In this document: positions 25,975-30,393 of the stretch, one piece after another
Position numbering within the stretch: the stretch's first letter is position 1
Layout of the letters: every line of letters starts with the position of its first letter
Source of the DNA: Streptosporangiales bacterium
GTDB taxonomy: Bacteria > Actinomycetota > Actinomycetes > Streptosporangiales > WHST01
Assembly: GCA_009379955.1 (NCBI GenBank)
Contig: WHST01000018.1
Coordinates: 1-64,000, forward strand
DNA: 64,000 nucleotides
Reading direction: 5' to 3'
Notes under the pieces: generated by a model
What the model saw: the letters and a program-made list of their open reading frames with translations, nothing else
What the model was told of the DNA's origin: nothing
Database searches by the model: none
Program-made: the position numbers and the translations under genes

Positions 25975-26684
25975 ATCCTGACGATGAGGTTCTGACTGTC
26001 GACGAAGCGTCCGGTGTCCGAGGCGAGCATCTCGATGACCGCGGCGACGTCGCCCGGCTGCATGATCGTGGACGGATCCTCGTCAGGAGCAAGCGTACGG
26101 CGCAGGTCGGTGGCGCACCGGCCAGGGGAGAGGCAGACGACCCGGGTGCCGTAGATCTTGAGCTCCTCCTTCATCACCTCGGACATGGTGATGAGCGCCG
26201 ACTTCGACGCGGAGTAGGTGAGCCAACCGGGCCGGCCGCCGAGACCGGCGGTGGAGGCGATGTTGACCACGAGGTCGAACGTGTTGCCGAGTCTGAGCAG
26301 CTCCTGGACGATCGTGAAGGGCGCGTACAGGTTGACCGCCATCGTGCGCTCGAACGAGCCGAAGTCGATCTGCTGGATGGCCTTGGGGTCGGTGTAGCCG
26401 GCGTTGTTGACGAGGACCTCGACGTGCTCGTGCCGGTGCATGACCTCGCCCATCAGCGCGACGAGGGCGTCGCGGTCGGCCAGGTCGATGTCGTAGCGGT
26501 GCAGCACCTTGTCGTGCGGGTTGTCGGCCGCGAGCTCGTCGAGGGTCTCGTCGAACGCCTCGGACGACCGGGCGAGCAGGACCAGCTCGGTCACCGCGTT
26601 GTCGGTGTGGAAGAAGCGGCGAACGGTTTCGCGTCCGATACCCTTGGAAGCCCCTGTGACCAGCATCGTCTGTGGCTTCGTCAT
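25971..26684 (-). CDS. short-chain dehydrogenase/reductase
   Basis: The 237-aa SDR has TGASKGIG (residues 10-17), DIDLADRDALV, the NNAGYTDPK motif near 91, and the active-site Ser-Tyr-Lys as NIASTAG ... YSASKSALI near 160, then the PGRCATD substrate loop. Start ATG 26684 has GGAGG 11 bases upstream; the frame is open far beyond it but without sense. It shares GTGA with the glycerophosphotransferase gene downstream. SDR domains that reduce ribulose 5-phosphate are known in CDP-ribitol synthesis (Bcs1-type), which would fit the neighbour; other substrates are possible and no cytidylyltransferase is nearby. Confidence 0.88.
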   Translation of the reverse strand: MTKPQTMLVTGASKGIGRETVRRFFHTDNAVTELVLLARSSEAFDETLDELAADNPHDKVLHRYDIDLADRDALVALMGEVMHRHEHVEVLVNNAGYTDPKAIQQIDFGSFERTMAVNLYAPFTIVQELLRLGNTFDLVVNIASTAGLGGRPGWLTYSASKSALITMSEVMKEELKIYGTRVVCLSPGRCATDLRRTLAPDEDPSTIMQPGDVAAVIEMLASDTGRFVDSQNLIVRM

Positions 26685-26840
26685 CGGTGCACGGCCTCCA
26701 GCGGCACGGAGTTGAACGACGGGCGTCACCTGCGTGAACGCCACGAGCGTAGCGTGCCGGACTCGGTGGGTAGGCACACCGGGGTCGTCCGGCCGGGGCG
26801 CGTAGCCTTCTGGTCGGACCGAGGAGATGAGGAGCGGGTG

Positions 26841-27776
26841 GTGCTGAGCAGGGTGCTGGGTCAGGTCGCGGATTCGGCGCGGTTGAAGCACGTCGTCGAG
26901 ACCGCACCGGTGTCGCGCGGGGTCGTCAAGCGGTTCGTCGCGGGCGATCTGGAGGCCGACGCCGTCGCCGTGACCCGCGACATCACGGACACCGGTCTCC
27001 TGGTGACGCTCGACCACCTCGGCGAGGACACCACCGACCTCGAGCAGGCGTCGCGCACGGCGGAGGCGTATGTCTCCGTGCTCCACCGGCTCGCCGCGGA
27101 GGGGCTCGCGACGCACGCCGAGGTGTCGGTGAAGCTGTCGGCGGTCGGCCAGGCGCTGTCGATCGTCGGCGACGGGCACAAGATCGCGCTCGAGCACGCT
27201 CACCGGATCTGCGCCGCGGCGAAGGATTCCGGCACGACGGTCACCCTCGACATGGAGGACCACACCACCACCGACTCCACGCTGGAGATCCTCACCGAGG
27301 TACGCCGTGACTTCCCGTGGGTGGGTGTCGCGCTGCAGAGTTACCTGCGCCGCACCGAGGGCGACTGCCGCGACCTCGCCGGCGCGGGGTCGCGCGTGCG
27401 GCTGGTGAAGGGGGCGTACGCCGAGCCCGACTCGGTCGCCTACCAGCGCGGCCGCGACGTCGACCGCGCGTACGTGCGGTGCCTCAAGCTGCTGTTCAAC
27501 GGCGCCGGGTACCCGATGGTGGCCACGCACGACCCGCGGCTCGTCGAGATCGCGGCATCCCTGGCCGTGCAGTACCACCGCGACCCGTCGTCGTACGAGT
27601 TCCAGATGCTCTACGGCGTGCGTCCCGACGAGCAGCGGCGCCTCGGCCAGCGCGGCGAGCAGGTGCGCGTCTACGTGCCGTACGGCGTGCAGTGGTACGG
27701 CTACCTGATGCGGCGCATGGCGGAGCGACCGTCCAACGCCATGGTGTTCCTGCGCGCCCTCACCACGAAACGCTGA
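26841..27776 (+). CDS. proline dehydrogenase
   Basis: PRODH oxidises L-proline to pyrroline-5-carboxylate using FAD. The 311-aa TIM-barrel protein shows VSVKLSAVGQAL, VTLDMEDHTTTDSTL, GVALQSYLRRTEGDC, RLVKGAYAEP, MVATHDPRL, EFQMLYGVR and the C-terminal YVPYGVQWYGYLMRRMAERPSN. The last segment holds the arginines that bind the proline carboxylate. GTG 26841 was chosen over GTG 26838 because it sits 6 bases after AGGAG. proC lies 20 bp downstream, so catabolic and biosynthetic proline enzymes are adjacent, opposing reactions in one transcript unless a promoter intervenes. No P5C dehydrogenase in the window. Confidence 0.95.
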   Translation: MLSRVLGQVADSARLKHVVETAPVSRGVVKRFVAGDLEADAVAVTRDITDTGLLVTLDHLGEDTTDLEQASRTAEAYVSVLHRLAAEGLATHAEVSVKLSAVGQALSIVGDGHKIALEHAHRICAAAKDSGTTVTLDMEDHTTTDSTLEILTEVRRDFPWVGVALQSYLRRTEGDCRDLAGAGSRVRLVKGAYAEPDSVAYQRGRDVDRAYVRCLKLLFNGAGYPMVATHDPRLVEIAASLAVQYHRDPSSYEFQMLYGVRPDEQRRLGQRGEQVRVYVPYGVQWYGYLMRRMAERPSNAMVFLRALTTKR

Positions 27777-27796
27777 CGTCTGGAGTCTTCGGTCCC

Positions 27797-28603
27797 ATGA
27801 CAGACAAGGTCGCCGTCCTCGGCGTGGGCAAGATGGGTGAGGCGCTGCTCTCCGGCATGCTGCGCGCGGGCAAGCCGGTCGGTCAGCTGCTCGGCACCAC
27901 GCGCGGGGCCGAGCGCGCCGACACCCTGCGGGAGCGCTACGGCGTCGCCATGGTCGACAACGCCGAGGCCGTCACGTCCGCCGACACCCTGCTGCTCGCG
28001 GTCAAGCCGCAGGACATGGGCGTGCTGCTCGACACCATCGCTCCGCACGTGTCGGCGCACCAGCTGGTGGTGTCCGTCGCCGCGGGCATCCCGACCGCGT
28101 TCCTGGAGAGCCGGCTGCCGGCCGGCACCCCCTGCGTCCGCGTCATGTCCAACACCCCGGTGCTGGTCGACGAGGCGATGAGCGCGGTGTCGGCCGGTGC
28201 GCACGCCACCGAGGAGCACCTGCGCCGCACCGAGGAGATCCTGCAGCCGGTCGGCAACGTCATGCGCGTGCCCGAGTCGCAGCAGGACGCCGTCACCGCG
28301 CTGTCCGGCAGCGGCCCGGCGTACGTCTACTACCTCGTCGAGGCGATGACCGACGCCGGCATCCTGCTCGGCCTGCCCCGCGGGGTGGCGCACGACCTGA
28401 TCGTCCAGGCCGTCCGCGGCGCCGCCGCGATGCTCGTCGAGTCCGGCGAGCACCCGGTGCGCCTGCGCGAGGCCGTCACCTCGCCCGCGGGCACGACCAT
28501 CAACGCGATCCGCGAGCTGGAGAACCACGGCGTCCGCGCGGCCGTCCTCGACGCGATCGTCGCCGCCCGCGACCGCTCCCGCGAACTCGCCTCCGGCAGC
28601 TGA
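27797..28603 (+). CDS. proC: pyrroline-5-carboxylate reductase
   Basis: ProC reduces P5C to proline, the last step of proline synthesis. The 268-aa protein has the dinucleotide motif GVGKMG (9-14), LLLAVKPQDM, VSVAAGIPT, RVMSNTPVLV and the family signature in ALSGSGPAYVYYLVEAMTDAG with the LREAVTSPAGTTINAI stretch. It begins at ATG, 20 bases after the proline dehydrogenase stop. The R1 double hairpin follows 17 bases after its stop codon and separates it from the convergent trpS gene. Confidence 0.97.
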   Translation: MTDKVAVLGVGKMGEALLSGMLRAGKPVGQLLGTTRGAERADTLRERYGVAMVDNAEAVTSADTLLLAVKPQDMGVLLDTIAPHVSAHQLVVSVAAGIPTAFLESRLPAGTPCVRVMSNTPVLVDEAMSAVSAGAHATEEHLRRTEEILQPVGNVMRVPESQQDAVTALSGSGPAYVYYLVEAMTDAGILLGLPRGVAHDLIVQAVRGAAAMLVESGEHPVRLREAVTSPAGTTINAIRELENHGVRAAVLDAIVAARDRSRELASGS

Positions 28604-28705: not shown

Positions 28706-29719
28706 TCAGCGCCCGGCCGGCGGCGCCGGGAGCGGCATCAGGCCGAACGCGCATTGCGCCCTGGCCAGCACCGGGGCGGCGAGCTCCGTGGCGTGCTGGG
28801 CGCCGAGTGCCAGCGCGGTGTCGACGTAGCCGGGGTCGGCGACGAGCGTCGCGTACCTTTCGCGGACCGGGCGGAGCGCGTCGAGCACGGCGTCGGTCAC
28901 GTCGGCCTTCAGCTCGCCGTACGTGGCGTACCTGGTGGCCAGATCCTCGGGACCGTCGTCGGAGAACGCCGCCAGCAGGTCGAGCAGGTTGGACACGCCC
29001 GGCCTCGCAGCCGGGTCGTACCGCACCTCCCGCTCGCTGTCGGTCACGGCGCGGGCGATCTTCCTGCGTACGACGTCCGGCGGGTCGAGGAGACGGACCG
29101 CGCCGAGCGCCTCGTCCGGGTCGGACTTGCTCATCTTGCGTTCCGGCTCCTGCAGGTCCGACAGTCTCGCGGCCACCCGTGGCAGGACGGTCTCGGGCAC
29201 GACGAACGTCTCGCCGTACCGGTGGTTGAACCGCAGCGCGAGGTCGCGGGCGAGCTCGACGTGTTGGCGCTGGTCGTCGCCGACCGGCACCTCGGTCGTG
29301 TCGTACAGCAGGATGTCGGCGGCCATCAGCACCGGGTACGTGAGCAGGCTCGCGCGCACCGACTGCTGCCGGCCGGCCTTCTCGCGGTACTGGATCATCC
29401 GTCGCAGCTCGCCGTCGTACGCCGTGCACTCCAGCAGCCAGGTGAGGCCGAGGTGCTCGGGCACGTGGCTCTGCACGAAGACCGTGCAGACCTCCGGGTC
29501 GAGCCCGGCCGCGAGCAGCGTGGTGGCGAACTCGCGGGTGCGTACGGCGAGCTGCCGCGGGTCGTGCTCGACGGTCGGCGCGTGCAGGTCGACGACGGAG
29601 AAGAGGCAGTCGGCCTCGTACTGCTGCACTGTCCAGCGGCCCACGGCGCCGAGCAGGTTGCCGAGGGTGAGTCGCCCGCTGGGAGCGGTACCGCTGAAGA
29701 TGCGGCGCTTGCGTGCCAT
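28706..29719 (-). CDS. trpS: tryptophanyl-tRNA synthetase
   Basis: The 337-aa class I synthetase charges tRNA-Trp. It has the HIGH-equivalent TAPSGRLTLGN (11-21), the Trp pocket segment TYPVLMAADILLYDTTEVPVGDDQ, and KMSKSDP (about 193-199). In this frame the HIGH motif is LTLGN rather than the common LHLGN, so the first His is replaced by Thr, seen in some synthetases. Start ATG follows GGAGGAACG. The 5' leader carries what looks like a Trp-codon leader peptide and an intrinsic terminator, described separately. It converges on proC across R1 copy 2. Confidence 0.95.
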   Translation of the reverse strand: MARKRRIFSGTAPSGRLTLGNLLGAVGRWTVQQYEADCLFSVVDLHAPTVEHDPRQLAVRTREFATTLLAAGLDPEVCTVFVQSHVPEHLGLTWLLECTAYDGELRRMIQYREKAGRQQSVRASLLTYPVLMAADILLYDTTEVPVGDDQRQHVELARDLALRFNHRYGETFVVPETVLPRVAARLSDLQEPERKMSKSDPDEALGAVRLLDPPDVVRRKIARAVTDSEREVRYDPAARPGVSNLLDLLAAFSDDGPEDLATRYATYGELKADVTDAVLDALRPVRERYATLVADPGYVDTALALGAQHATELAAPVLARAQCAFGLMPLPAPPAGR

Positions 29720-29757
29720 CGTTCCTCCGTCGTACGGGCCTCGCGGAGGTGGGCATG

Positions 29758-29826
29758 AAAAAGACCGCCTCGGCGAGGCGGCCTCAAGGTGTCGTGCGCT
29801 ACCCGGCTCGCCTCAACAGGCGAGCC
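29758..29826 (-). promoter_or_regulatory. transcription attenuator in the trpS leader
   Basis: On the minus strand, hairpin 1 (29826-29805; GGCTCGCC/GGCGAGCC, 6-base loop) is followed by an intrinsic terminator (29781-29765; CCGCCTC/GAGGCGG) and a run of T (TCTTTTT, 29764-29758). No gene ends upstream on this strand, so the terminator belongs to the trpS leader. The GAGGCG of the 3' arm of hairpin 1 can pair with CGCCTC of the terminator's 5' arm, making the two structures exclusive. A ribosome stalled at the leader TGG would block hairpin 1, free GAGGCG and prevent termination: induction on Trp shortage. Confidence 0.65.
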
Positions 29827-29851
29827 AGCACTGGAGCGATCGGATGCGCAC
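29813..29851 (-). CDS. putative trpS leader peptide (12 aa, one Trp)
   Basis: GTG at 29851 opens MRIRSLQCWLAC, with the TGG codon at 29827-29825 just before hairpin 1 and the TGA inside the loop region of that hairpin. The start has only a weak site (TTGGAC), and TAGATT upstream could be a -10 giving an almost leaderless message. It is meaningful mainly because of the attenuator structure that follows. Confidence 0.45.
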   Translation of the reverse strand: MRIRSLQCWLAC

Positions 29852-29892
29852 GCGTCCAATCTACCGCACGGGACCGGGGATATCGTCGCGTC

Positions 29893-30393
29893 ATGCCAGG
29901 TCCCGTCCGCGTCCGCACCCTGCGCCCCGACGATTGGCGGACGGCGCGTTCCGTCCGGCTCGCCGCCCTCACCGACGCGCCGCTGGCGTTCGCCTCGTCG
30001 CTCGACCGCGAACGGGCGAAGGGCGAGGCCGACTGGCGCGAGATGCTGACGCCGGAGCGCGGCGTACGCGCGCTGGCCGAGTGCGACGGCGCCGTCGCCG
30101 GGGTCATCGGCGTGTTCAGCAGGGGCGACGACGGCGAGATCATCTGGATGTGGGTCGACCCCGCGTTCCGCGGCCAGGGTGTCGGCGACGCGCTCGTCGC
30201 GTACGCGCTCGACTGGTGCTGGAGCCGGGGCCTCGGCTGCCACCTCTGGGTGGCCGACGGCAACGACGTCGCGTGGCGGTTCTACGAGCGGCTCGGTTTC
30301 GTGGCGACCGGCGAGCGCCAGCCGCTGCCGAACGACGGCGCCCGCATGGAGTCGCAGATGCGTTACGTGGGCAGCCAGGACCTCCACCCGTGA
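29893..30393 (+). CDS. GNAT-family N-acetyltransferase
   Basis: The 166-aa protein is a single GNAT domain: VRTLRPDDWRTARSVRLAAL start, RALAECDGAVAGVIGVFS, IIWMWVDPAFRGQGVGDALV (acetyl-CoA motif A, Q/RxxGxG/A) and VADGNDVAWRFYERLGFVATGER. Begins at ATG, divergent from trpS with 173 bp between. A hairpin terminator follows directly. Substrate unknown. Confidence 0.9.
   Translation: MPGPVRVRTLRPDDWRTARSVRLAALTDAPLAFASSLDRERAKGEADWREMLTPERGVRALAECDGAVAGVIGVFSRGDDGEIIWMWVDPAFRGQGVGDALVAYALDWCWSRGLGCHLWVADGNDVAWRFYERLGFVATGERQPLPNDGARMESQMRYVGSQDLHP

Follow-up and report, generated by a model that had tools for sequence, protein, structure and literature searches.

Upstream of trpS, in the 64,000-nucleotide stretch of DNA analysed here (the window), a short leader carries a small open reading frame (ORF), a hairpin and an intrinsic terminator. 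A sequence-only reading had taken this leader for a Trp-codon attenuator, with the reservation that a single Trp codon is weak for attenuation. The locus raises the question of whether such a leader could regulate trpS, and by which signal. The comparative evidence (a conserved Trp codon, competing hairpins and the position of the likely upstream promoter) supports Trp-codon attenuation, and the leader very probably controls the genome's second trpS, an auxiliary, TrpRS1-type copy, by ribosome-mediated transcription attenuation.

Anatomy of the trpS leader

A GTG-started 12-codon ORF, a hairpin and a terminator can be read directly, in series, from positions 29851 to 29757 of the minus strand. 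The ORF lies where it had been proposed, with the refinement that its start codon is GTG. The features of the locus are as follows:

29858–29863, minus strand: probable −10 element TAGATT, 6 nt 5′ of the leader start codon, recognised by sequence and conserved position
29813–29851, minus strand: leader peptide ORF MRIRSLQCWLAC, GTG to TGA, with homologous leader ORFs at 86 other trpS loci
29846–29851, minus strand: 5′ strand of the P0 helix, GUGCGC, start codon included, pairing with 29794–29799 and covarying across leaders
29825–29827, minus strand: putative regulatory codon TGG, the only Trp codon of the leader, lying 15 nt from the GGCG core in the antiterminator arm
29805–29826, minus strand: P1 (pause/anti-antiterminator) hairpin GGCTCGCC-TGTTGA-GGCGAGCC, from sequence and folding
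29794–29799, minus strand: 3′ strand of P0, GCGCAC, in the spacer between P1 and terminator, covarying across leaders
29775–29814, minus strand: predicted antiterminator, GAGGCG (29814–29809) with CGCCTC (29780–29775), excluding P1 and the terminator
29757–29781, minus strand: intrinsic terminator CCGCCTC-GCC-GAGGCGG (29781–29765) with U-tract TCTTTTTC, unique in the window
28706–29719, minus strand: trpS, auxiliary-type tryptophanyl-tRNA synthetase (TrpRS) of 337 aa (PF00579, E 1.5e-65), with the Shine–Dalgarno (SD) sequence GGAGG before its ATG

P1 comprises 8 bp (GGCTCGCC at 29826–29819, GGCGAGCC at 29812–29805) and holds the stop codon TGA of the leader ORF in its loop; a spacer of 23 nt leads to the terminator, which lies 37 nt from trpS. 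The Trp codon had been described as sitting just before the hairpin, which is right as to position, except that the last two bases of TGG already belong to the P1 stem. The proposed competition between GAGGCG and CGCCTC was borne out by their complementarity, and P1, antiterminator and terminator are mutually exclusive through shared arms. The U-tract terminator was likewise confirmed. When both strands of the 64 kb were scanned under a strict definition (a stem of at least 7 perfect pairs, at least 5 GC, and at least 6 T in 8), the trpS-leader site was the only one found, in agreement with the earlier claim that U-tract terminators are otherwise absent from the window, and 20 Markov-shuffled windows gave none. 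A looser general scan returned 5 other weak sites in 20 kb, against a chance level of 3.9, and missed the trpS-leader terminator, probably by extending its stem into the U-tract. The leader and its downstream region fold with −66.1 kcal/mol, which is better than 200 of 200 dinucleotide shuffles (z −3.5).

In 71 of the 87 trpS leaders compared, a TANNNT motif ends 6–7 nt ahead of the start codon (shuffle mean 1.5, maximum 6), and 57 of 66 trpE/trpD-type leaders have it at the same spacing, while an SD-like motif occurs in 2 of the 87. The window leader carries TAGATT at the conserved spacing, and this candidate −10 element implies that the leader mRNA is probably leaderless, starting at the GTG or no more than a base or two away from it. 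The sequence-only reading had named a promoter downstream of the terminator as the finding that would speak against attenuation; the likely promoter lies upstream of the leader instead. A promoter between terminator and trpS was rejected, as these 37 nt contain no TANNNT-type site.

On the other side of the leader, a divergent GNAT acetyltransferase gene (29893–30393, plus strand) has TATCGT 6 nt before its ATG and is probably leaderless as well. Only 41 bp separate its start codon from the start of the trpS leader, and therefore the two promoters overlap; this divergent arrangement looks conserved at the related loci L003 and L084. Genes for proline dehydrogenase and pyrroline-5-carboxylate reductase (26424–28603, plus strand) converge on trpS from the opposite flank.

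Related leaders and the auxiliary trpS

At the window leader every Rfam 15 family stays below its gathering score, and an Rfam search with the leader and 11 related loci gave chance microRNA and sRNA matches only, none for a leader family; a T-box leader was rejected, there being no Rfam T-box match. Homologous leaders were nevertheless present at 87 trpS loci, window included, in Streptomyces, Streptosporangium, Nocardioides, Nocardia, Asanoa, Actinopolymorpha and others. The same arrangement precedes related trpS genes with the leader peptides MTTRTCTQLWWAA in Streptomyces, VLTTRSTQWWPA in Nocardioides, MRTLSFLGWWSP in Asanoa, MRTSTYFVWWLP in Nocardia and VSKHSLGLWRAA... in Streptosporangium, the first residue being the GTG start in each case, and two sister Acidothermales leaders encode VRTTNGTCWFAR and VRTTVHRCWLTS... 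The alignment of related leaders, which the sequence-only reading had suggested as a check, shows that the Trp codon and the competing hairpins are kept in relatives. The antiterminator pairs form in 89% of cells, compared to 16–61% when slid.

A covariance model (R1) was built from 27 leaders using P1 and terminator pairs only, with P0 pairing and the −10 element absent from it. R1 had at least one match in 152 of the 390 good Actinomycetia genomes sampled, where the leaders it found are selected for similarity and mutually related, so that counts over them are not independent. Even though it has no Rfam family, the leader family thus provides a testable set. On its own genome, the window leader, itself among the 27 training leaders, scored E 2.4e-10, and nothing else was better than 0.75. 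Among 127 retrieved matches, 59 precede a TrpRS gene; a sample of the remainder lies before genes for TrpE (anthranilate synthase) or TrpD (anthranilate phosphoribosyltransferase), as judged by reading the proteins and not by family search. No confident leader match was obtained at 66 loci of the unattenuated kind (best E 0.048). The trpD/trpE leaders of this type, noted at many loci, often carry two or three Trp codons, and P0 covaries there too. In the genome of the window, trpE (at ~3.6 kb of contig C1) lies directly 3′ of a hisI-like gene, by reading, and no leader was seen at this locus; therefore, the trpS leader is the sole one of its type found in its own genome.

The trpS product is a class I TrpRS whose best PDB relatives are TrpRS structures. 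Its host belongs to the order Acidothermales, the nearest named record being an Acidothermales metagenome bin with a TrpRS that is 86% identical. Each of the three family genomes examined has two TrpRS matches, and the second copy in the window's own genome (contig C100) is 48% identical to the window TrpRS. For this second copy no leader was found within ~200 nt upstream on the contig, nor was one found at the equivalent locus of a sister genome. Exactly two trpS genes were present in 18 of 18 sampled genomes with an attenuated trpS, which was always accompanied by an unattenuated partner. In a tree of 67 TrpRS, one group (support 97/92) unites 32 attenuated enzymes, including the window copy and those of Streptomyces; the unattenuated partners fall outside it, and five divergent attenuated TrpRS (families f18 and f42) make up a second group.

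With Gln9 of the Geobacillus enzyme as reference, the equivalent residue is Ala in the window copy, Lys in most Streptomyces copies and Gln in housekeeping copies, including the window copy's own partner; the His43 equivalent is kept in both the window copy and its partner. An auxiliary indolmycin-resistant TrpRS1 is reported from Streptomyces, and the Ala of the window copy would fit such an enzyme, which is suggestive of putative resistance, although the residue is no strict marker. Indeed, the idea that a non-Gln residue at position 9 goes strictly with the attenuator had to be rejected: Lys is found in many Acidimicrobiia trpS without an attenuator, and Gln in some trpS that have one. Family f18, seen at eleven loci, comprises divergent TrpRS (35–40% identical) with Arg in place of Gln9 and Gln in place of His43, and its trpS genes are preceded by the same leader type, mostly MKSLVLVWWLPS. 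Its His43 change is of note because Asn at His43 has been reported to confer indolmycin resistance (PMC4899734). That the leader goes with a second trpS suggests a cell prepared for antibiotics that inhibit TrpRS, such as indolmycin.

Trp codon spacing and the P0 helix

A ribosome was placed at each codon of 87 distinct trpS leaders, its edge taken as 16 nt past the first base of the P-site codon, and the nascent RNA downstream was folded. With codons −2 to +1 relative to the first Trp in the A site, the predicted antiterminator formed in 99–100% of the leaders; with codon +2 there the figure was 76%, and from +3 on it was at most 1%. With the ribosome stalled at TGG in the window leader, the RNA is free from exactly GAGGCG and forms 10 antiterminator pairs (−20.6 kcal/mol); this TGG lies 15 nt from the antiterminator arm, which is where the edge of the stalled ribosome falls. 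In 84 of the 87 leaders, the first Trp codon is 15–17 nt away from the GGCG core. Twelve of the 87 lack a second Trp beside the first, all of them at 15–16 nt, and single-Trp leaders recur in three lineages, Streptomyces included. Because of the fixed 15–17 nt spacing to the antiterminator, one Trp codon at this position is predicted to be enough. Together with single-Trp leaders in three lineages, such as S. lividans trpL2 (MMTRTCTQLWRAA), the spacing answers the reservation that one codon would be too weak. The lone Trp codon still counts against attenuation to the extent that the ribosome has to stall efficiently at a single place. The suggestion that single-Trp leaders owe their existence to the failure of a stall one codon further on found only partial support: such a stall costs ~9 kcal/mol in the window leader and ~6 in L084, but ~2–4 in L003 and in the WR leaders, a cost similar to that in WW leaders.

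All three Acidothermales leaders have a Cys codon (TGC) immediately ahead of Trp (QCWLAC, GTCWFAR and RCWLTS), and the window leader also ends in Cys, which would suit a leader that senses cysteine, or Cys and Trp together. Candidate Cys-codon leaders of cys operons are described for mycobacteria (PMC1262725), and the geometry alone is compatible, since an A site one codon earlier also gives the antiterminator. However, the regulated gene is trpS, and in other families the preceding codon varies (Gln, Leu, Arg, Gly, Ser or Thr) whereas the Trp codon is constant, so that cysteine sensing appears very improbable next to Trp-codon attenuation.

The opening codons of nearly every leader are complementary to the spacer that separates P1 from the terminator, and we call this pairing P0. 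Its strands are GTGCGC/GCGCAC in the window and GTGCTGA/TCAGCAC, ATGCGG/CCGCAT, GTGTCGA/TCGACAC, GCGTACGTG/CACGTATGC or ATGCAGCGAGCG/TGCTCGCTGCGT in other leaders. Across 21 non-redundant trpS leaders, the mean P0 score was 16.4 with their own partners, compared to 11.85 with swapped spacers (sd 0.82, maximum 14.63 of 2000); for 20 trpE/trpD-type leaders the scores were 16.3 and, when swapped, 12.8 (maximum 15.68 of 2000). P0 has at least 5 pairs in 84 of the 87 leaders and includes the start codon in 28, and it contributes a median −8.4 kcal/mol to the leader before the terminator. In the median leader, the 5′ strand would be largely covered by a ribosome stalled on Trp, while GTGCGC would stay free in the window leader. 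Since P0 nests with P1 and the terminator yet crosses the antiterminator, it likely favours termination. We tentatively propose that actinobacterial Trp attenuators have in P0 a working part not described before, a helix that ties the start region of a leaderless ORF, often including the start codon, to the pre-terminator RNA. If true, P0 would lock the leader in the terminated state when the Trp codons are ribosome-free, and would close the start codon to a second ribosome, so that each transcript gives one reading of tRNA-Trp charging; it would also predict how an untranslated leaderless attenuator avoids false antitermination.

The locus could alternatively hold a plain, unregulated terminator next to an incidental small ORF, given that short GTG ORFs are common in GC-rich DNA and that the terminator is strong on its own. 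Such a reading is made extremely unlikely by the joint conservation of Trp codon, arm distance, competing pairing, −10 spacing and P0 across distant families, and by the association of the leader with Trp genes, namely trpS plus, by protein reading, trpE/trpD. Control exerted mainly on translation or through Rho, in which the hairpins would affect mRNA stability or the trpS ribosome binding site, would fit the poor U-tracts of many actinobacterial relatives and the S. lividans trpL2 reported without a U-rich stretch (PMC8079986), but it is hardly credible for a leader whose U-tract is strong and unique in the window and whose terminator hairpin leaves the trpS SD GGAGG outside.

Proposed mechanism and known systems

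The sequences and structures, their conservation and covariation, the geometry, the gene family and the paralogue are computed or observed. From them we infer how Trp-codon attenuation would proceed here: where transcription starts, that the ribosome stalls, how the leader responds to charged tRNA-Trp, what P0 does and which physiological signal is read. When charged tRNA-Trp is plentiful, the ribosome would clear TGG and reach the stop codon in the P1 loop, where it would either cover the P1 3′ arm or be released, allowing P1 (and P0) to fold; the terminator would then form, and transcription would end 37 nt before trpS. When charged tRNA-Trp is scarce, through starvation or inhibition of the other TrpRS, the ribosome would stall with TGG in the A site and cover the P1 5′ arm, and the free 3′ arm GAGGCG could pair with the terminator 5′ arm CGCCTC, so that trpS would be transcribed. 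A known Trp-sensing switch would thereby extend to an order with few sequenced genomes.

The E. coli trp operon attenuator works alike, with its 1:2, 2:3 and 3:4 helices and Trp codons in the leader peptide; the likeness is one of mechanism, and no sequence homology is claimed. The E. coli trp leader has a Shine–Dalgarno site and two Trp codons. Closer systems are found in actinobacteria. Ribosome-mediated attenuation of an auxiliary Streptomyces trpS was reported by Vecchione and Sello 2010 (J Bacteriol 192:3565; cited in PMC4787780). This S. coelicolor trpRS1 attenuator reportedly also combines a leader peptide with Trp codon(s) and a terminator, and its target is an auxiliary, antibiotic-resistant trpS. 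In the TrpRS tree, the window trpS falls together with the attenuated Streptomyces trpS; it differs from trpRS1 in its order (Acidothermales), in CW[L/F] instead of WW or WR, in a better U-tract, and in Ala at the Gln9 position, where Streptomyces copies usually have Lys. In S. lividans TK24, trpL2-trpS (SLIV_21112/21110) has a 13-residue leader (MMTRTCTQLWRAA) with one Trp codon, a leaderless transcript and two hairpins (PMC8079986). The window leader resembles it in its one Trp codon, two hairpins and candidate leaderless start, but the peptide sequence is different, and the strong U-tract of the window contrasts with trpL2, for which no U-rich stretch was reported. Seliverstov et al. 2005 listed candidate attenuators of S. 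avermitilis trpS2 and of trp operons of Streptomyces and Corynebacterium, which share a conserved complementary triple GGCC-rGCy-GGCC, Trp codons and a GC-rich terminator; their text describes antiterminator and terminator hairpins only, and not P0 (PMC1262725). The mechanism is already known, and what the present leaders add to it are P0, the conserved, probably leaderless start and the spacing rule.
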